Notes under the pieces: model-generated
Database searches by the model: none
Seen by the model: only the letters and a program-made list of their open reading frames with translations
Told to the model about the DNA's origin: nothing
Shown here: one piece after another, positions 5,734 through 63,370 of the stretch
How positions within the stretch are numbered: position 1 is the stretch's first letter
Layout: each line of letters opens with the position of its first letter
Assembly: GCA_014281115.1 (NCBI GenBank)
Contig: JACONQ010000002.1
Location: forward strand, 1,612,001 to 1,676,000
Origin: Laburnicola sp. R22_1
Lineage: Eukaryota; Ascomycota; Dothideomycetes; Pleosporales; Didymosphaeriaceae
DNA length: 64,000 bases
Reading direction: 5' to 3'
Position numbers and translations under genes: made by a program

Positions 5734-5740
5734 AAAAAAA
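5734..5740 (-). terminator. RNA polymerase III terminator of the tRNA-His gene
   Basis: On the minus strand seven consecutive T begin 13 bases after the tRNA 3' end, and a second T5 run follows at 5723-5727. T runs of this length are normal Pol III stop signals, so the neighbouring tRNA gene has a complete 3' signal. Confidence 0.75.
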
Positions 5741-5752
5741 TGACCAGATAAT

Positions 5753-5892
5753 TGGCGGTACTGGGAATCGAACTGTTCATACAGTCAGTACACATTGCCT
5801 CATCGTGACTATAAATCCTCTCAGGAGAGGGTTAACCTTACCCCAGGCTAACGCGGCCACAACGCGACGTCATACCACTAGACCATACCACC
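5753..5892 (-). tRNA. tRNA-His (GUG) interrupted in the T-arm by an intron-like 69-bp segment
   Basis: Read on the minus strand, bases 5892-5842 and 5772-5753 together give a 71-nt cloverleaf. The acceptor stem GGTGGTA pairs with TACCGCC (one G-U). The D-arm starts GTCT with loop AGTGGTAT. The anticodon loop is TTGTGGC with anticodon GTG, and the surrounding GTTGTGGCC is the same as in yeast tRNA-His. The T-stem CTGGG pairs perfectly with CCCAG around loop TTCGATT, and the discriminator is A. Box A is TGGTCTAGTGG. The anticodon stem has one T-T mismatch at its base. The 69 bases 5841-5773 sit between T-stem position 53 and T-loop position 54. That is not the 37/38 site where eukaryotic nuclear tRNA introns occur. 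The last G of the insert restores the box B core GTTCGATTC. The gene could be a functional tRNA with a new intron type, or a recently disrupted copy. Confidence 0.82.
5773..5841 (-). other. Spliceosomal-intron-like segment inside the tRNA-His gene
   Basis: On the minus strand the 69-bp segment begins GTAAGG and ends GAACAG. TACTGAC lies with its branch adenosine about 12 nt before the acceptor. Length, donor, branch and acceptor all match the mRNA introns of neighbouring genes. It contains a perfect inverted repeat CCTCTC/GAGAGG and a palindrome GGTTAACC, so it can fold tightly, as described for introner-like elements of Dothideomycetes. Whether it is spliced, and by what machinery, cannot be seen from sequence. 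Confidence 0.7.
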
Positions 5893-6289: not shown

Positions 6290-8650
6290 ATGGCTGAAGG
6301 TGCGTACCTTTCGGAGTTATTAGCAACTGATATTGGGAATATATGTTGACTATGTACAGGACGGCCGCGCCGCAGCAGCGGTCGACGCGTCTCATACAGT
6401 TACAAAGAAGCTTTCAAAGACATCGACCTCTCGGAGTCAGAGGCAGAAGATGACGAGATGGAAGAGGAAGTCGAGGTCGAAGATAAAGAACCGGACGAGT
6501 TCGTTCTGCCAGATGAGGAAGAGGAAGACGAAGCAGATGAAGAGATGGACGATGCCCACGAGGAAGAGAATTACGACGTTTTCGCAGCAGAAGAAGACGA
6601 CAACGTTGCTCGTGGCGAGTCCGTCGTCGACGTCGCGTCCGACCGCGAAATAGATACTAGCATTCTTTCTAAGCCTATGGGCAATCTGGGGGCAGCGCCG
6701 CGCAGGACGGCTACACCGAATATAGGTGGCTCTCGGTATATTCCTCTGGCTAATAAGGGTCACGGGGCTGAGGTGCGCCAAAGGGCGATTGAAGATTGGA
6801 ACTTTGGAGGACAGGAGATGCGTCTTAAGAATCTTTTTGGTCCCAATGCGGATCTACAGCCTGTCCTTGAGACGAGGAAGAAGTGGGGTCAGCAAGAGAC
6901 GTTGCCGAGTCGCTCTCGAAATGACCTAGCGAGGTCGCCGTACCTTGCGGAAGACGCGAAAGAGAAAGAGACGAAAGCTTTGCAGAAGTGGTACGCGGAT
7001 GTCGGACAGGAAGCTTTCGCCCAAGGGCAACAGACGCGTCAGTTGAGCGGAGAGGAGGCACAAGCGTACTTGGTCAACCCGGGACCGGATTCGATGAACC
7101 TCCTCATGGGCGGGATTCAGAACCAACGCGTGTTCACACTCAAGAAACGAGAGTACATGAGCGCCTCAAAACCGTTCGGGTCGAAAGACAAACGCAGGGG
7201 CTGGACATTGTACCTAGGTTCTCGCATCCAGGACGCGCAATGGGCTCCGAATGAGCAGGGGTCTACACAATACCTCGCTGTCGCTGTCGAGCAAAAGCAT
7301 ACTGCGGGAAAAAAGTACAAGCTCTTGGAGAACCCGAAAGCTCCAGCATTTACAGCGACGAAACCATATCCGGGATCAATACAGATCTGGGCTTTCGACG
7401 CAAACACCGACGGTACTCTCGACCCGACGAAAGAGCCTCGCCTCGAGCAGGTCATATGCACGGATTGGGGTGCCCCGAAAGCCCTCAGGTGGTGGTTCGT
7501 TGGGGCTCAAGACTCGGCAGATCAGACAGAAGACGGCATGGTTCGCCTTGGACTACTTGCTGGCATCTGGTCGGACGGCAAAGTAAGAATACTAGACGTG
7601 TCCCATCGAAAGCCCGAAGCGGGCTCGCACCAGACACAGTATGTGCACTATACAAAAGCAGCTTTCGAGGTTGCATTCCCAGACACGATCCCAAGCTACC
7701 TATGCTGGCTCTCACCAACCACGCTTGCCGTAGGAACCGCCTCAGGCATCCTCGCGGTATGGACTATATCTGCGGTTCGAACATCTCCATCTCCAAATAC
7801 GCAGGGCAACGACAAGCTCTGCACTCGCCCATGGTTCTACAAACAAGTATCCGACACATATATCATTACCGTAGCTTCCGGCTACCCATCCCGCCCGAAC
7901 TTCCTTTCCATCACCACAGCCGACGGCTTCGCGCGCCTCGTCGATCTACGCACTCCCCTCCCGGACGCCTGTTCTGCTCCGCGCAGCCGCATGCTCATCC
8001 ACGCCCAAGCATGGCACGAGCACACGCAGTCTTTCATCATGCCAGACGAGTACTATTTGCTCCGGCACGGCTCGATCCGCCGTTTCTACCAATCCATCTA
8101 CTCTTTTAGGATAGAGAGTTCGATCACCGCCTGCGCCACAAGCTTGTGGCACCCGTGTGTATTGGTTGGGACCGCGGATGGCAGCGTCGTGGCTTCGAAT
8201 GGGACGTGTAAAGTGTTGAATAGTAAGGAAGTACCTTGGTCGCAGATATGGTTCATGCATGAATGGAGGCGAGCGATGAAGGACGGCAAGCCGAATGGCG
8301 AAACCTCATCTTCGCACGAGAACACGAATGGAACTGACGGCACTGCAACTTCGGATGCCACCACCACCGGAGACCAGAGCGAAACCGTCACGTTGCAGTT
8401 GCATAATTTCGATGAAACTGCCTTCTCACAACCTCTCACGCGCATCACCGAGGGCTATGAACCGCAGCAGACGAATCTCAACTATCCGGACCCTACGAAG
8501 CGGTACAAGGAGGGCGCAAAGTTTATTACTATATATGAGGAGAATTCTGCGGTTACGAGGGTGGCGTGGAATCCGAACTTTAAGTTTGGGACTTGGGCTG
8601 TTGCGGGGATGCATAGTGGGTTTCTCAGGGTGGAGGATCTGGGTATTTAG
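6290..8650 (+). CDS. tfc6: TFIIIC complex subunit, Tfc6-like WD40 protein
   Basis: A 10-nt first exon (6290-6299) joins by a 60-bp intron (GTGCGT donor, GTTGAC branch-like, CAG acceptor) to exon 2 at 6360-8650. The product has 766 residues and begins MAEGRPRRSSGRR. Residues 30-90 are very acidic. The middle and C-terminal parts carry weak WD-type repeats, for example around LLAGIWSDGKVRILDV, LAVGTASGILAVWTI and HPCVLVGTADGSVV. The blocks SIRRFYQSIYSFRIESSITA and KVLNSKEVPW resemble, as I recall them, fungal Tfc6, a subunit of TFIIIC that binds box B of tRNA genes. The order of blocks supports this more than any single motif. It lies about 400 bp from, and divergent to, the tRNA-His gene; that may be chance. 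The tiny first exon fixes the start, because no other in-frame Met precedes the conserved Arg-rich segment. Confidence 0.72.
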
Positions 8651-34775: not shown

Positions 34776-36900
34776 CCATGGGTGCGGGGTCAATGCGCGC
34801 CGAGCCTCAATGCGCGCTCAACACGAAAACACCTCAAGCTTCAACACCACCTATCGCTACCAATATGGGGTCAATTGAGGCTGCGCTTGAAGCGATACAA
34901 TCGCAAGAACCTGGAGACTCTATCAACTATACAAAAATCGCGAAGGAGCATAGCGTTGTACGCTCTACGCTCACCCGGAGACACCAGGCTGTAACGCAGT
35001 CGCGTACAGCTGAGGGAATCAACCGACGAAAACTTCGCCCTCAACAGGAGCAGGAGCTTATACGCTATATCAAAAAACTCACTTAGCGAGGCCTACCACC
35101 TACACGGCAAATGATCTAGAACTTTGCAGCCTGTATAGCCAAAACGAGCGTTAGCATGTACTGGGTTGATCAGTTCGTCAAGCGACACAGCATTGATCTA
35201 GTTTCAAGATGGACAGCTGGAATGGACAGCAATCGCCACAAAGCCGACTCAGAGACAAAGTACAGCCTATATTTCGACCTACTACAGCAGAAAATTAGCC
35301 AATACGATATCGAGCCTCAGCACACGTACAATATGGACGAAAAAGGCATCCTACTAGGCATTACTACTCGCTCAAAGCGGATCTTTAGTAGGCAGCTGTA
35401 CGAGAGCAAGGAGGTGAGGCAGGCTATTCAGGATGGTAGCCGTGAGTGGATTTCGCTCCTAGCCTGCATATGCGCCGACGGATCGGCTCTAGATCCAGCC
35501 CTCATCTATCAGGCTGCCTCAGGTAGCCTACAATCAAGCTGGGTTGAAGAAATTAACCCTCAGGAACACTCAGCCTTTATCACCTCATCGCCTTCTGGCT
35601 GGACAAATAACAAGATAGGCCTCGCGTGGCTTAAGCAGGTGTTCAATCGCTGTACTAAGGAGAAAGCTAGACGCTCCTACCGACTACTTATCCTTAACGG
35701 CCATGGATCCCACCTTACTATGGATTTTATCAATTACTGTGACCGGAATAGGATACTCCTAGTTATATTTCCGCCTCATTCGACGCATACGCTACAGCCG
35801 CTTGACGTTGTTATATTTAAGCCTCTCTCCACTGCCTACTCAGCTAAGCTCTCAGCCTTCCTACACAGGTGCCAGGGACTATCGTCAATCGCAAAAAGAG
35901 ACTTCTTTAGCCTATTCTGGAGGGCTTGGGGTAGCTCGTTCAGGAAGCCATTGATTATTAAGGCCTTTGAGGCTACTAGCATATCACCACTCAACCCAGA
36001 GGTTATACTCAAGAGATTCACTAAGACCAGCCTACCCAAGCGGGAATCAAGAGAAAGCTCAACCTCAGTACTCAGCGCGTCTAACTGGAGGAAAATCAAC
36101 CGGCTCCTAAAGGCTGCAGTAGATATAGGGAATAGTAATAAGGCAAAGAAGCTAAGCCGAACAGTGCACTCAATTGCCGTACAAAAACAGCTACTACAGC
36201 ATGAAAATAAGGGACTAAGAGCAGCACTAGGCAATAAGAAGAGGCGTAGGAAGCGTGGCAAGCCTTTGCTGGATAACCAGCCTACTAAGTACTCAGGGGG
36301 TGCTGTTTTCTGGTCCCTAAGGAAGGTGCAGGAGGCACGTGATCGTCTACAGCAAAAAGAGGCCAAGGCAGAGCAGCTAGTACTCCAAAAAACTGAGGCA
36401 GCTGAGGCTTGGAGGGCTAGCTAGCAGCTGAAGGCTAGACTACTCTAAGAGAAGCGCGTTGCGAGGGCTGAGGCTTAGGCAGCTCGAGCGAAGGCAAAGG
36501 CGGATTAGGCAGCTAAGCGAGCCCAGAAGCAGCAGGCTTGTAGGGCTCAGCAACACTATAAGAATTGTATAAAAATAGCTAAGAAAGGTAGCAAAAAGGC
36601 ATTAAGGCTACCTAAGCAGGGCATAAGGGAAAAAAAGCTTATTAATAAGGCTATAGATGCTGCTGAGGCCTCAGGTGCTGCATCACAGCCTCTACAGCCT
36701 CAGTTGCGCCGGGGCCGGAATATTAGAACTCCGAGTAGATTTTTATAGCTATAATTAATTATTAAGATTCATAGACCTCATCACCAGAAATTCTTATAAT
36801 AATAGCAATTGTAGGGAGCTCTGCAGCTTCAAGTTTAGCTGAGCTGGTTTGGTGTTGAGCGCGCATTGAGGCTCGGCGCGCATTGACCCCGCACCCATGG
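34776..36900 (+). mobile_element. Complete pogo/Fot1-type element with 49-bp inverted repeats
   Basis: The 2125-bp element is bounded by perfect 49-bp terminal inverted repeats (34776-34824 and 36852-36900) that begin CCATGGGTGCGGGG, flanked on both sides by TA (34774-34775 and 36901-36902), the target duplication of Tc1/mariner elements. Each inverted repeat contains two copies of TCAATGCGCGC with a 17-bp period. It carries one transposase frame, now broken (next entry). Perfect ends with a broken gene mean either a fairly recent insertion that was then mutated, or mobilisation in trans. Confidence 0.93.
34865..36748 (+). pseudogene. Pogo/Fot1 transposase with six premature stops and a lost catalytic Asp
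   Basis: One frame of 628 codons from MGSIEAALEAI to RTPSRFL, aligned over its length with the copy at 49044. Order: N-terminal helix-turn-helix, HTH_CENPB-type DNA-binding region, DDE core with YNMDEKG (first Asp) and LQPLDVVIF (third Asp), charged coil, final RRGRN. Premature stops: TAG 35084, TAG 35117, TAG 36422, TAA 36446, TAG 36476, TAG 36506; each is one C-to-T change from CAG or CAA. The second catalytic Asp in LILDGHGSH is Asn here (LILNGHGSH), explained by TpG to TpA. The longest surviving open piece is 35156-36424. The protein cannot be active. Confidence 0.9.
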
Positions 36901-48005: not shown

Positions 48006-48944
48006 GAGATCAAGGAGCTGGCTATGCGACCAGACTACTTCAAAGTCAAAACAGTAGCCTTAGGTGTTAACCCGACCGATCTTCATCACACAGCATGCGC
48101 TGGTCGTGTAGGTGGAATCCTTGGATGCGACCTCTCCGGTATCGTTGAAGATGTCGGCGAGGATTGCGCGTCAGACTTGAAGAAAGTCGACCATGTGTAT
48201 GGCGTGTGCCACGGAGCCAATCTCGTAAGTGCATATCATTGCTGTCTTTGAACCAGCCAGACCTCACATTCGGATAGAGCTCAGAGGAAGACGGAGCTTT
48301 TGCTGAGTATGCCATGGTTTGAGACGGCCATATCGCTAAAATCCCGGAGACATTGACGTTCGAAGAAACGGCTGCGCTGGGAGTTGGTCTTACTACTATC
48401 GGCCAGACTCTTTACATGTCCATGAAGCTTCCTCTCCCAGGCGAGAAACCTCTCGAGGGCGCTCCTTTCATTCTGATATACGGGGGAAGTTCGGCGGCTG
48501 GTACTCCCGCCATACAATTTGCCAAGCTGTAAGGACGTACTCGTAACCTTTGTATAGACTTGCTGACTCTTAATAGCTCTGGACTTACCGTCGTGACGAC
48601 CGCGAGCCCCGAAAATTTCGACTTGGTCAAGGATAGGGGCGCCGACGTCGTCTTCGATTACCACGACCCAGACTGTGCACGTACCTAACATCAAAGAATA
48701 CACGAAAGGGTCGCTGCATTATGTGTTGGACTGCGTCTCAACCGGGTCCAGTTACAAGCTCATTGCAGAGGCGCTTCCCGTCGATTTTCCGCCGCTTGCT
48801 GCGCATTTCGAATTTGGGGTCATGTTTTGGAAGCTCAGCCATGAGCTTCTTGAAGCTGGGAAGATCAAACCCCACCTGGTCGCGCTGCGCAAGGGCGGAC
48901 TGAGCGCAATTCCAGATGGGTGAGGTTTTCTCGGCAGACATATA

Positions 48945-51056
48945 ACGTGTCTGTGCGCGTGCCGAGCCACTTCGCGTGCCGAGCCACCCAACACCAAAAC
49001 GCTAAATAATCGCCTGAATTTGACGCGTCATAACTCCACCAATATGGGGGCAATCGAGGATGCGATTGCAGCTATTGAATCTTTAAATCCAGGGGAATCA
49101 TTTTCGTACAGAAATATTGCTGCCACCTACGGTGTAGATCGAACTACGTTATCCCGAAGACACAAGCGCGTTCAGGCACCAAATGAAGCCAAGAACATCA
49201 ACCAGCAGAAACTCAACCCACAGCAAGAGCAGGAGCTTGTAAAATATATCAAAGGACTCACAGAGAGACATATACCACCTACTAGGGAGATGGTACGAAA
49301 TTTCGCCTCTACAGTAGCCAAGGAGGCAGTCAGCGAGAGCTGGGTTACCCGCTTTATCAACCGACACAGCATTCATCTTATCTCGCAATGGACAGTCGGC
49401 ATGGACAGCAATCGCCACAAAGCTGATTCAGGGGATAAATATCGCCTCTACTTTCAGCTCCTACATGACAAGATCAATCAATATCAAATAGATCCTCGTC
49501 ATACCTACAATATGGATGAGAAAGGCTTTATGATCGGTGTTGTTGGCAGATCAAAGAGAATATTCAGCCGACGAATGTGGGAGAAGAAGGAGGTTAGGGC
49601 ATCACTCCAGGATGGAAACCGCGCGTGGATCACGCTCCTAGCATGTATATGCGCCGATGGATCTGCTCTGCCTCCTAGCCTGATCTATGAGGCTGCCAAC
49701 AAAGGCATCCAATCAGCCTGGGTAGAAGACATCAAGGCAGGAGAACATGAAGTCTTTATCACCTCATCACCCTCTGGCTGGACGAACAACGATATTGGTC
49801 TTGCCTGGCTTGAACAGGTATTCGATCGCTGTACAAAAGAGAAGACTCGACGAGCATATCGGCTCCTAATCCTAGACGGCCATGGATCCCACATTACAAT
49901 GGATTTCATCGACTACTGTGATAAGCATAGGATCCTGCTTGCTATCCTGCCTCCTCATTCAACTCATACGCTTCAGCCACTTGACGTTGCAATGTTCAAG
50001 CCTCTATCAACTGCCTACTCAGCCGAGCTCTCGAAATACCTCAACGCAGGCCAAGGCCTAGTTTCTATTAAGAAGGGCAATTTCTTCCCACTATTCTGGA
50101 AGGCATGGCAGGCCTCCTTCAAGGAATCAACAATCCTTAGCTCTTTTAGAGCAACAGGCATATCACCACCTGATCCTGATCCAATCCTCGATAGATTCAC
50201 TAGATCTCAAGAATCAAGAGAAAGCTCCTCATCCCTACTGAGCGATCATGATTGGAGAAAGGTGGATAGGCTCGTACGCTCTGCAGTTAAGGATCAGAGT
50301 AGTAAGGATACGCAGAAGCTTCGTCAATCGCTCCACCATCTATCTGTTCAAAATGAGCTACTCTACCACGATATTGATAGGCTTAGGGAGGCACTGTCTA
50401 CAAAGCAGAAGCGTAAGAAGAAGGGCAAAGCTCTAGATCTCCAACAGCGCAAGGAGTATCACAGTGGGTCAGTGTTCTGGTCACCTAGGAAGGTGAGAGA
50501 GGCACGTGTCCGTCAATCTATCAAGGAGCAGGAGGATAGGGAGCAGCAGCTTTAAAAAGCAGAGACAGCAGAGCTAAAGAAGGCAGCTAGACTATACAAG
50601 GAGAAAATCCAGCAGGAAAAGCGTGCTGCGCGAGAGGCAGCGAAGGAGGCAAGAGAGAAGGAGAGAGCTAAAAAGGCAGCTTAGCGCGCTGCCCAGAAGT
50701 CTGCCCGCGACGCAAAAAAAGCTCTACAGTCATCTAAAAAGGGTAAGAGGAAGGCCTCTCAGCCATCTCTACAGAGCAGAAAACGTCAGAAACGTGTTGT
50801 TGATACTTCAGATGTTGAGGAGTCCTTAGAGGGCGCATCTGCTGCCCCAACCGTCTCTACACGTCGCGGCCGCAACGTCAAGCTTCCAGACAGATATAAA
50901 TAGTGCAAATTAATCGCAAGGATCTATTTAGTGCCCCTCTAGAAAATCCTGTAATAATATTAATTGTGGGTGGCTCTATAGCTTCATTTTTGCATAAGCT
51001 GTTATGGTGTTGGGTGGCTCGTCACGCGAAGTGGCTCGGCACGCGCACAGACACGT
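48945..51056 (+). mobile_element. Complete pogo/Fot1-type element inside an intron
   Basis: The 2112-bp element has about 50-bp terminal inverted repeats starting ACGTGTCTGTGCGCG, with one mismatch, and TA on both sides (48943-48944, 51057-51058). Each inverted repeat holds two copies of a GTGCCGAGCCAC-like word with a 17-bp period. It encodes the best preserved transposase of the window and lies in the last intron of the reductase pseudogene in the same orientation. Confidence 0.93.
49044..50903 (+). pseudogene. Pogo/Fot1 transposase, catalytic core intact, tail with two stops
   Basis: The frame begins MGAIEDAIAAIESLNPG and runs without a stop to TAA 50553-50555; a TAG at 50682 also interrupts the tail, and the original end is RRGRNVKLPDRYK followed by TAG at 50903. 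The first 503 residues hold a helix-turn-helix, a CENP-B-type DNA-binding segment, and the full DDD core: YNMDEKGFMIG, LILDGHGSH and LQPLDVAMF. Only the Lys-rich coil and the final RRGR motif are lost by the TAA. Both stops are single C-to-T changes from CAA and CAG. The truncated protein might still cut DNA; this cannot be decided here. Confidence 0.88.
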
Positions 51057-61555: not shown

Positions 61556-61678
61556 TAGCGTCCACCAGCCCAGGGCTTCGTGCTATCATCAGTTGCTACA
61601 GAAGACCTCCCTCCTAAGAGGCACGCATACATCATTCCACTCCGCGCTTACATACGAAATCCTTTGCGACACTACACT

Positions 61679-63370
61679 ATGGGGGACATGGACCCTCAGC
61701 CAACCGCTCTCAAGCTCGTGGTTGTGGGCGGTGTTGCTGGCGGCATGTCCTTTGCCGCGCGAGCACGTCGCCTGTCCGAAACCGCCAACATCACCGTCTT
61801 CGAGAAAGGGCCGTTCGTCGGCTACGCCAATTGCGGTATCCCGTACGCGCTTGGCGGCATCATCCAGTCCGACGAAGCACTCGTTCTGCAGACTCCAGAA
61901 TCAGTCAACGCACGGTACAATGTCAATATCCGGCACAACACCGAGGTCGTGGGTATCAACCGCGAGAAGAAGACTATAGATTTCCAGACTGGAGACCACC
62001 CGGTCCAGAGCATGGCCTATGACAAGTTGATCCTGGCGCAGGGTGCTGAAGCGTTCCGACCGCCGATGAAGGGCTCCGATGCCCCGAATGTCTTCACTCT
62101 GCAGACGATTCCGGATATGACTGCCGTCAAGAAGTACATGTTCTCCCACGGCAGAAAGTCCGCCGCAATCATCGGCGGAGGCTTTATTGGTCTTGAAGCG
62201 GTCGAGGCGCTGCACGCACTCGGCATGCAAGTCTCAATCGTCGAATACATGCCTCACGTCTTCCCACCGGTCGACCAGGACGTCGCAGAACCACTTCACA
62301 CCGAGATACGCCGGAACAACGTATCCGTTCACCTGAACGCGCGCATCCAGGAGATTGTACCCCCGGCGGAGGATGGCGCGACAAGTCACATCCTTCTGGA
62401 GTCTGGGGAAAAGATACCGGGAGATGTCATTCTGCTCGTTGTCGGTGTACGTCCGAGAGTGCAACTTGCAGAGAAGGTTGGTCTCGAGACGAACCGCTTT
62501 GGTATCGTTACGAACGCCCAAATGCAGACATCGGACCCAGACATCTACGCCGTCGGCGACATGGCCTGCACTACCAACATGATCACTCACAACCAGCAAA
62601 ATCTCGCACTCGCGGGTCCGGCGAACCGGCAAGGACGTCTGGTGGCTGACCACATTTTCGGCCGGGACGTTGCGTACAGGGGCAACGTCGGCACCTCTGC
62701 GTGCAAAGTCTTCGACATCAACGTTGGACTCGTCGGGCCCTCGATGTCGAATCTGAGGGCGCAAGGAATTCAAGCCGAGTATGTGACGGTGCATCCACCG
62801 AACCATGCTGGGTACTACCCAGGCGCCACGCCGCTGTCTCTCAAGCTCGCCTTTTCGCCCACTGACGGGAAGGTCCTAGGCGCGCAGATCGTCGGAAAGG
62901 AAGGCGTCGACAAGCGGATCGATGTCCTCGCGACGTGCATCACGGCGGGCATGACGGTGTACGATCTGGAACATTTGGAGCTCGCGTACGCCCCGCCCTT
63001 CGGCTCAGCCAAAGACCCGGTCAACATGGCGGGCTTTGTCGCGGCGAATGTCCTGCGCAAGGACACGGAGATTGTCCACAGCGAGAACTTGACTGCCGAC
63101 GCGCTGAGCGAGTACCAGGTCATCGATGTGCGCAGCCCGAGCGAGTACGTCAAGGGGCATATGAAGGAAGCCAAGTTGCTGCCGTTGAACGAGCTGAGGA
63201 AGAACGTTGGGGAGATTGATAAGAGCAAGAAAGTGCTCGTGTACTGCCAGGTTGGCTATCGGGGTTACTTGGGTTATAGAATCCTGAAGCAGGCGGGATA
63301 CAATGTCGTTAATCTGGACGGAGGATTCAAGGCGGTGAGCCAGGGCGCATTCAACGCGTTGATTGCGTGA
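61679..63370 (+). CDS. CoA-disulfide reductase fused to a rhodanese domain (CoADR-Rhd)
   Basis: A single exon of 563 residues. FAD motif VVVGGVAGGMSFAARARRL (13-31), the active-site motif YANCGIPYALGG with Cys52 in place of the two-Cys centre of glutathione reductases, the NAD(P)H motif AAIIGGGFIGLEAVEAL, and the second FAD motif DIYAVGDMA. A dimerisation domain follows, with AYAPPFGSAKDPVNMAG, then a C-terminal rhodanese domain (about 465-563) with VIDVRSPSEYVKGH and the active loop VYCQVGYRG (Cys523). In bacteria such fusions reduce CoA disulfides, CoA persulfides or polysulfide. The order and lack of introns are bacterial in style, so transfer from bacteria is likely (inference). The ATG at 61679 is the first in the frame; MGDMDPQPTALK precedes the FAD motif closely. 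The gene lies in a transposon-rich end of the window. Confidence 0.93.
   Translation: MGDMDPQPTALKLVVVGGVAGGMSFAARARRLSETANITVFEKGPFVGYANCGIPYALGGIIQSDEALVLQTPESVNARYNVNIRHNTEVVGINREKKTIDFQTGDHPVQSMAYDKLILAQGAEAFRPPMKGSDAPNVFTLQTIPDMTAVKKYMFSHGRKSAAIIGGGFIGLEAVEALHALGMQVSIVEYMPHVFPPVDQDVAEPLHTEIRRNNVSVHLNARIQEIVPPAEDGATSHILLESGEKIPGDVILLVVGVRPRVQLAEKVGLETNRFGIVTNAQMQTSDPDIYAVGDMACTTNMITHNQQNLALAGPANRQGRLVADHIFGRDVAYRGNVGTSACKVFDINVGLVGPSMSNLRAQGIQAEYVTVHPPNHAGYYPGATPLSLKLAFSPTDGKVLGAQIVGKEGVDKRIDVLATCITAGMTVYDLEHLELAYAPPFGSAKDPVNMAGFVAANVLRKDTEIVHSENLTADALSEYQVIDVRSPSEYVKGHMKEAKLLPLNELRKNVGEIDKSKKVLVYCQVGYRGYLGYRILKQAGYNVVNLDGGFKAVSQGAFNALIA

Follow-up and report, generated by a model that had tools for sequence, protein, structure and literature searches.

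The introns of nuclear tRNA genes form a separate class, located mostly at positions 37/38 and excised by a dedicated endonuclease. U6 small nuclear RNA is a product of RNA polymerase III (Pol III), and its genes in fungi are reportedly interrupted by spliceosomal introns, as described by Tani and Ohshima in 1989 and by Canzler in 2016. Introner-like elements of fungi are a further route for the gain of spliceosomal introns. Here we describe a tRNA-His(GUG) gene of the fungus Laburnicola sp. R22_1, located in a 64,000-nt stretch of contig JACONQ010000002.1 (positions 1,612,001 to 1,676,000; hereafter the window), whose T-arm is interrupted by an insert with the signals and length of a spliceosomal intron, and a second locus elsewhere in the genome that carries the same split. 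We consider it probable that both loci are working tRNA-His(GUG) genes whose T-arm carries an ectopic spliceosomal intron of U2 type, which the spliceosome would remove from the Pol III transcript.

The insert has features in common with several described systems and departs from each of them. As with the U6 introns of S. pombe and other fungi, it is a short GT-AG intron with a fungal branch site in a structured RNA made by Pol III, but the host RNA here is a tRNA, whose introns otherwise depend on the tRNA endonuclease. As with canonical nuclear tRNA introns at 37/38, the exons are kept and the intron drifts, but the insert lies at 53/54, is 69-77 nt long and carries mRNA splice signals. Introner-like elements likewise involve the gain of spliceosomal introns, whereas this insert was found at the two split tRNA genes alone. 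Frequent interruption by introns is described as known so far for just two small structured RNAs, U3 and U6, with U6 introns cited for fission yeast and other fungi (PMC5832005). Ectopic spliceosomal introns in the ribosomal DNA of ascomycetes, lichens included, are also mRNA-type introns in non-mRNA genes (PMC8527467); the transcripts there are Pol I rRNA, whereas here a Pol III tRNA is the presumed substrate of removal. Finally, ectopic tRNA introns outside the anticodon loop, including the T-arm, are found in nucleomorphs, Cyanidioschyzon and archaea, and these are of bulge-helix-bulge (BHB) type or short (3-24 nt at non-canonical positions of the Guillardia nucleomorph), whereas here a strict BHB motif is absent and the GT, branch and AG signals are clear (PMC4090602, PMC3978253). 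Among the matches listed in a search of the open-licence literature, judged by title and the start of the abstract, none concerned nuclear tRNA genes with a spliceosomal intron.

Anatomy and divergence of the two split genes

A covariance-model search (cmscan) identified a tRNA (RF00005) on the reverse strand at window positions 5892-5753, with 37.1 bits against a cut-off of 29, and its alignment placed the insert in the T-arm. Exon 1 (5842..5892, 51 nt) contains the acceptor, D-arm, anticodon arm and V-region and ends with CTGGG, the 5' strand of the T-stem. The insert (5773..5841, 69 nt) lies between tRNA positions 53 and 54, away from the 37/38 site of canonical eukaryotic tRNA introns. Exon 2 (5753..5772, 20 nt) starts with the T-loop TTCGATT and continues through the 3' strands of the T-stem and acceptor to A73, a feature of His tRNAs in eukaryotes. 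When the exons were joined, ARAGORN called tRNA-His(gtg), the fold having 7 bp in the acceptor, 5 bp in the T-stem and an A73; it called no tRNA in the unspliced form of either split gene. This program also found no tRNA in the window, nor in the 5.1-kb stretches around both split genes when anticodon-loop introns were allowed (L078, L079). Deletion of a 69-nt block at 70 offsets led to a tRNA-His call at 20 of them (39-58), and ARAGORN by itself cannot therefore place the junction. Offsets 50 and 51, which yield an identical product, were the only ones among these 20 to combine a T-stem of 5 bp with a T-loop of consensus sequence, and of the two equivalent cuts offset 51 is the GT..AG cut. 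The initial annotation of the window had proposed a tRNA-His(GUG) with 69 bp inserted between positions 53 and 54, whose removal rebuilds a 5-bp T-stem and a canonical T-loop; the analysis bears out these coordinates and this anatomy.

A BLAST search of all 26 contigs of the assembly (63.9 Mb) with the 140-bp gene, very common words being skipped, gave two matches, the window itself and C22:85895-86042. The second copy is split at the same position by a homologous insert of 77 nt. Both exons are identical between the two loci (71/71), while the aligned inserts match at 59 positions and differ by 8 mismatches and 12 gap columns (about 8 indels); another aligner, applied to the whole gene, gave 11 mismatches and 6 gap openings. 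Taking the changes as 16/69 in the insert versus 0/71 in the exons gives a Fisher p of 4.5e-6, or p 0.0025 for mismatches alone. Comparison of the flanks by blastn (about 2.5 kb on each side, in the 5.1-kb stretches) detected no match beyond the gene better than E 0.9, and by this measure the flanks of the two loci are unrelated. Because the split is the same, the exons are identical and the intron has diverged, the intron would most simply have been present before the two loci separated, with the exons kept since. The test on these two loci of one genome indicates purifying selection on the exons, and no drifting, pseudogene-like exon sequence was seen between them. Intron-bearing tRNA genes of the same genome served as controls, and in three of the four families exons were kept and introns drifted: there were 0-1 exon and 1-4 intron mismatches among Lys-CTT copies, 0 and 2 for a Leu-AAG pair, and 0 and 1 for a Gly-GCC pair.

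These results bear on whether the loci still function. The insert had been put forward as either a new intron gain or the mark of a freshly killed tRNA copy; a second locus with the same split, identical exons, a diverged intron and unrelated flanks led us to reject a fresh insertion or dead copy. The presence of an intact tRNA-His elsewhere in the genome would be compatible with the two loci being dead tRNA copies into which an intron or mobile piece was inserted, and insertions in the D- and T-arms of tRNAs have been supposed to denote pseudogenes (PMC4090602). We nevertheless regard this explanation as rather improbable, given that 71/71 exon bases are identical at two loci versus about 16 changes in the insert, that T-runs lie downstream of both genes, and that the insert's matches in a search skipping very common words were both (2/2) at the split loci. 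An introner-like element was also considered and rejected, as both BLAST matches of the insert were split tRNA genes, in place of the many near-identical copies expected of such an element.

Entry of the intron into the tRNA most likely occurred by reverse splicing or a similar insertion, before the loci separated. Reverse splicing has been considered a likely route for the spread of 18S introns, and 18S introns of one position class occur across families of the Pleosporales, including Lentitheciaceae, although whether these are spliceosomal is left unclear in that source (PMC11889510).

Splice signals, Pol III elements and a U6 gene with introns

On the reverse strand of the window, the insert starts with the 5' splice site GTAAGG (5836..5841; GTAGGT in the C22 copy), contains the branch-point motif TACTGAC (5784..5790) with the branch A at -13 (TACTGAC with the A at -14 in C22) and terminates in CAG (5773..5775; CAG in C22 too, both inserts ending in ACAG). 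The positions of GTAAGG, TACTGAC and CAG are those of an mRNA intron, as had been noted before. A strict motif, chosen when the sequence had already been seen and requiring a GT[AG]NG start, a CTRAC within 45 nt of the 3' end and a terminal YAG, was present in 2/200,000 mononucleotide shuffles of the window insert and 0/200,000 of the C22 insert; a looser motif was present in 73/200,000 and 50/200,000. A chance origin of the splice motifs was rejected on these counts. Both inserts have the GTRNG-like 5' site, CTRAC branch and YAG end of U2-type introns, and their lengths (69 and 77 nt) fit fungal introns, those of the U6 gene described below being 65 and 51 nt and those of candidate mRNA introns 112 and 63 nt. 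The latter two were the ones judged convincing among 12 candidates in a survey that sought introns in the window by joining open reading frames. By signals and length, the inserts are confirmed as spliceosomal-type introns.

Removal by a different machine would also be compatible with working genes, if the T-arm intron were cut out by the tRNA splicing endonuclease, or by some other combination of nuclease and ligase, and the GT-AG appearance were coincidental. The Guillardia nucleomorph splices ectopic D- and T-arm tRNA introns, many of which have no defined BHB motif, and Cyanidioschyzon has such introns (PMC4090602, PMC3978253). Eukaryotic endonucleases are able to cut BHB motifs (PMC4090602), and in both copies the T-stem and a mostly wobble GGTT/GATT extension would form a partial helix at the junction. 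A strict BHB motif is, however, absent, with 2-3 of 4 pairs in the central helix and 1 pair in the outer helix. A relaxed motif was equalled or bettered, by count of flanking helices, in 331/500 and 288/500 shuffled introns, but this test is weak because just 2/22 of the genome's canonical introns have two flanking helices (these 22 ARAGORN introns are all in the anticodon loop because ARAGORN seeks introns there alone). Moreover, the eukaryotic endonuclease is considered to locate the canonical site by its distance from the tRNA body (PMC4090602), and such a route leaves the retention of GT, ACTGAC and CAG in both copies unexplained. The splice signals and the intron position thus disfavour an endonuclease route, which we think unlikely.

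Spliceosomal-type introns are found in a U6 gene of the same genome, near C9:1677728-1677945 (L087). Rfam U6 gave two matches on C9 (47/4321 candidates scored) in which the 5' part is missing beside the core, because an intron separates exon 1 from the core. The order is exon 1 (GTACTTCGG...TTTGAAA), a 65-nt intron, a core exon with ACAGAGA, a second intron of 51 nt and a terminal exon that finishes in T6, and TATATATA lies upstream; the outer ends and exon joints are placed where we take them to be by comparison with U6 sequence, with no model match. Intron 1 reads GTACGT..TGCTAAC..CAG and intron 2 GTTCGT..TACTAAC..CAG, each with the branch A at -12. A second U6-like core about 0.2 kb away on the opposite strand, without a recognisable exon 1, looks like a truncated copy. 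The initial annotation held that the spliceosome does not normally act on Pol III transcripts; this requires a qualifier in a genome whose U6 gene has two spliceosomal-type introns. In addition, yeast is reported to have excised spliceosomal introns of lichens from rRNA made by Pol I (PMC8527467); spliceosomal removal would accordingly not be strictly dependent on Pol II.

The split genes also have candidate elements of Pol III transcription. On the reverse strand of the window, we take TGGTCTAGTGG (5875..5885) to be the A box of the internal Pol III promoter and AGTTCGATTCC (5764..5774) to be the B box, by their consensus; the latter spans the 3' junction, and the last AG of the intron completes the box. 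A T7 run resembling a Pol III terminator (5734..5740, same strand) begins 12 nt past the tRNA end, and a T6 run lies 19 nt downstream of the C22 gene. Runs of T4 or longer occur within 60 nt downstream in 35/36 ARAGORN-called tRNAs, a sample that includes two of mitochondrial type (L051, L077), and the longest T-runs inside the two introns are of 3 and 2. Pol III would transcribe the split genes from the A box and the B box completed by the intron's 3' AG, stopping at the nearby T-run. The spliceosome would then recognise GTAAGG or GTAGGT, ACTGAC and CAG in the pre-tRNA, excise the intron and join positions 53 and 54, and ordinary end maturation would come after intron removal.

Other tRNA-His genes and the standing of the split pair

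An Rfam tRNA search of the genome scored 63/2627 candidates and missed the window's own gene. As this set was incomplete, tRNA-His genes were sought by three pattern searches, whose matches were scanned with cmscan at Rfam cut-offs. The first pattern had 31 matches (30 scanned), among which the only tRNAs were the two split genes; a wider pattern had 16 (including 6 of a narrower one, all scanned), among which the only tRNA was on C2. The tRNA-His genes found thus number three, the two split genes and an intact one at C2:625797-625868 (63.1 bits), and genes outside the patterns could be missed. In alignment the intact gene differs in sequence from the split genes, and there was no further BLAST match. 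A mitochondrial origin of this gene was rejected, since the mitochondrial tRNA-His (in L080) differs; GC content at the C2 locus is 46-56% in 11/12 blocks of 500 bp and 35% in the block with the tRNA itself. The initial annotation had listed several intact tRNA-His genes elsewhere among the signs of a dead copy: one intact gene does exist, but it is the single one found and its sequence differs. The uninterrupted copy of the split gene that was also to be looked for was not found, a pattern for the spliced junction with up to 3 mismatches having 0 matches in the assembly. Patterns for other tRNAs split at 53/54, with CTGAC (9 matches) or CTAAC (4 matches), detected none; 2 of these 13 matches are the known genes and, with one pair overlapping, the rest fall at 10 other loci without a tRNA at E 0.5. 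The split-gene pattern had 0 matches in viral and genome contig sets, which are sets without another fungal genome.

Two incidental observations came from these tRNA searches. About 20 of the 31 places matched by the first tRNA-His pattern (L009-L038) are occupied by a dispersed repeat with TAGCGGTATTCGCGAATTGTTGTGGC, which is not a tRNA and is perhaps a transposable element; in comparisons with L010 (n=9), 8 copies were alike over 800 bp (at least 41 of every 50 positions) and L009 over about 700 bp. Two tRNA-Asn genes (L047 and L073) have the same exons, one being intronless and the other having a 17-nt anticodon-loop intron; ARAGORN labelled the latter as Thr, which we took as an error.

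Exon conservation could alternatively reflect a retained role other than that of a tRNA, with selection acting on the unspliced RNA or on the DNA as a TFIIIC site. A hairpin between exon 1 and the start of the intron is predicted in both pre-tRNAs, and its loop contains the 5' splice site; conserved intron segments can pair with exon 1 in this manner in both copies, and the predicted overall fold is not a cloverleaf. Two-sided changes were found in none of the 39 predicted consensus pairs (covariation 0/39), a comparison of two sequences with little power. All 71 exon bases are kept, those of the anticodon loop and the two acceptor strands among them, which is more than a TFIIIC site or a hairpin in the intron needs, and we therefore consider such a role very improbable.

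Several points weigh against the proposal that both loci are working genes spliced by the spliceosome. The case is built from DNA sequence: that the loci are transcribed and spliced, that the spliceosome does the splicing, that the product is charged and how the intron arose are all inferred from it, and exon conservation comes from a comparison of two sequences of one genome. The exons have two blemishes: positions 27 and 43 form a U.U, and one pair of the D-stem is weak. Intron segments GGTTAACCCTCTC and AGTCAC are kept beyond what the splice signals explain, and this may reflect a constraint of another kind or a duplication of fairly recent date; as the duplication may have included no more than the gene, the flanks do not serve to date it. 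One control, a Gly-TCC pair, is an exception to the pattern of kept exons, with 9 exon mismatches. Finally, with an intact gene on C2, tRNA-His could come from a source other than the split genes, and these may be dispensable.

On balance, the split gene pair looks maintained, as opposed to fresh or dead. We put at about even the chance that one isoacceptor of a fungal lineage depends on the spliceosome as an obligatory maturation enzyme, whose activity could then limit histidine decoding; of the three nuclear tRNA-His genes identified, two would be usable only after mRNA-type splicing. If a maintained tRNA family does carry an mRNA-type intron, the line between the tRNA and mRNA splicing systems would move, and tRNA would join U6, U3 and rRNA as a host of ectopic spliceosomal introns. 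On the same condition, the failure of ARAGORN to find either split gene would suggest that tRNA annotation can miss real genes. The occurrence of two loci in one species would also make the gain of introns by reverse splicing into structured RNAs testable.

Neighbouring genes and further observations

In the window, a reading frame on the forward strand (6350-8650), divergent from the split tRNA and about 0.45 kb away from it, resembles the TFIIIC subunit tau91, a Pol III factor; it matches PDB 8ffz_E (E 3.8e-8) and 2j04_B (E 9.3e-10) and has no Pfam family. A DDE_1 transposase is encoded at 35120-36424 (forward strand), and the reading frame at 48924-50555 is similar-looking to it. The protein at 61559-63370 has 93% identity to a protein of Lentithecium fluviatile (Lentitheciaceae, Pleosporales); judged by this single protein, the host falls in Pleosporales, close to Lentithecium.

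Elsewhere in the assembly, the signal recognition particle and ribonuclease P RNAs were located. Mitochondrial-type tRNAs (L051, L071, L077) lie in AT-rich DNA at C24:1268904-1289032, on a contig of 3.3 Mb, and the tRNA-Met of L051 is identical to one on the mitochondrial contig C19. We read this stretch of C24 as a large insert of mitochondrial DNA in the nuclear genome, or else as an assembly error.
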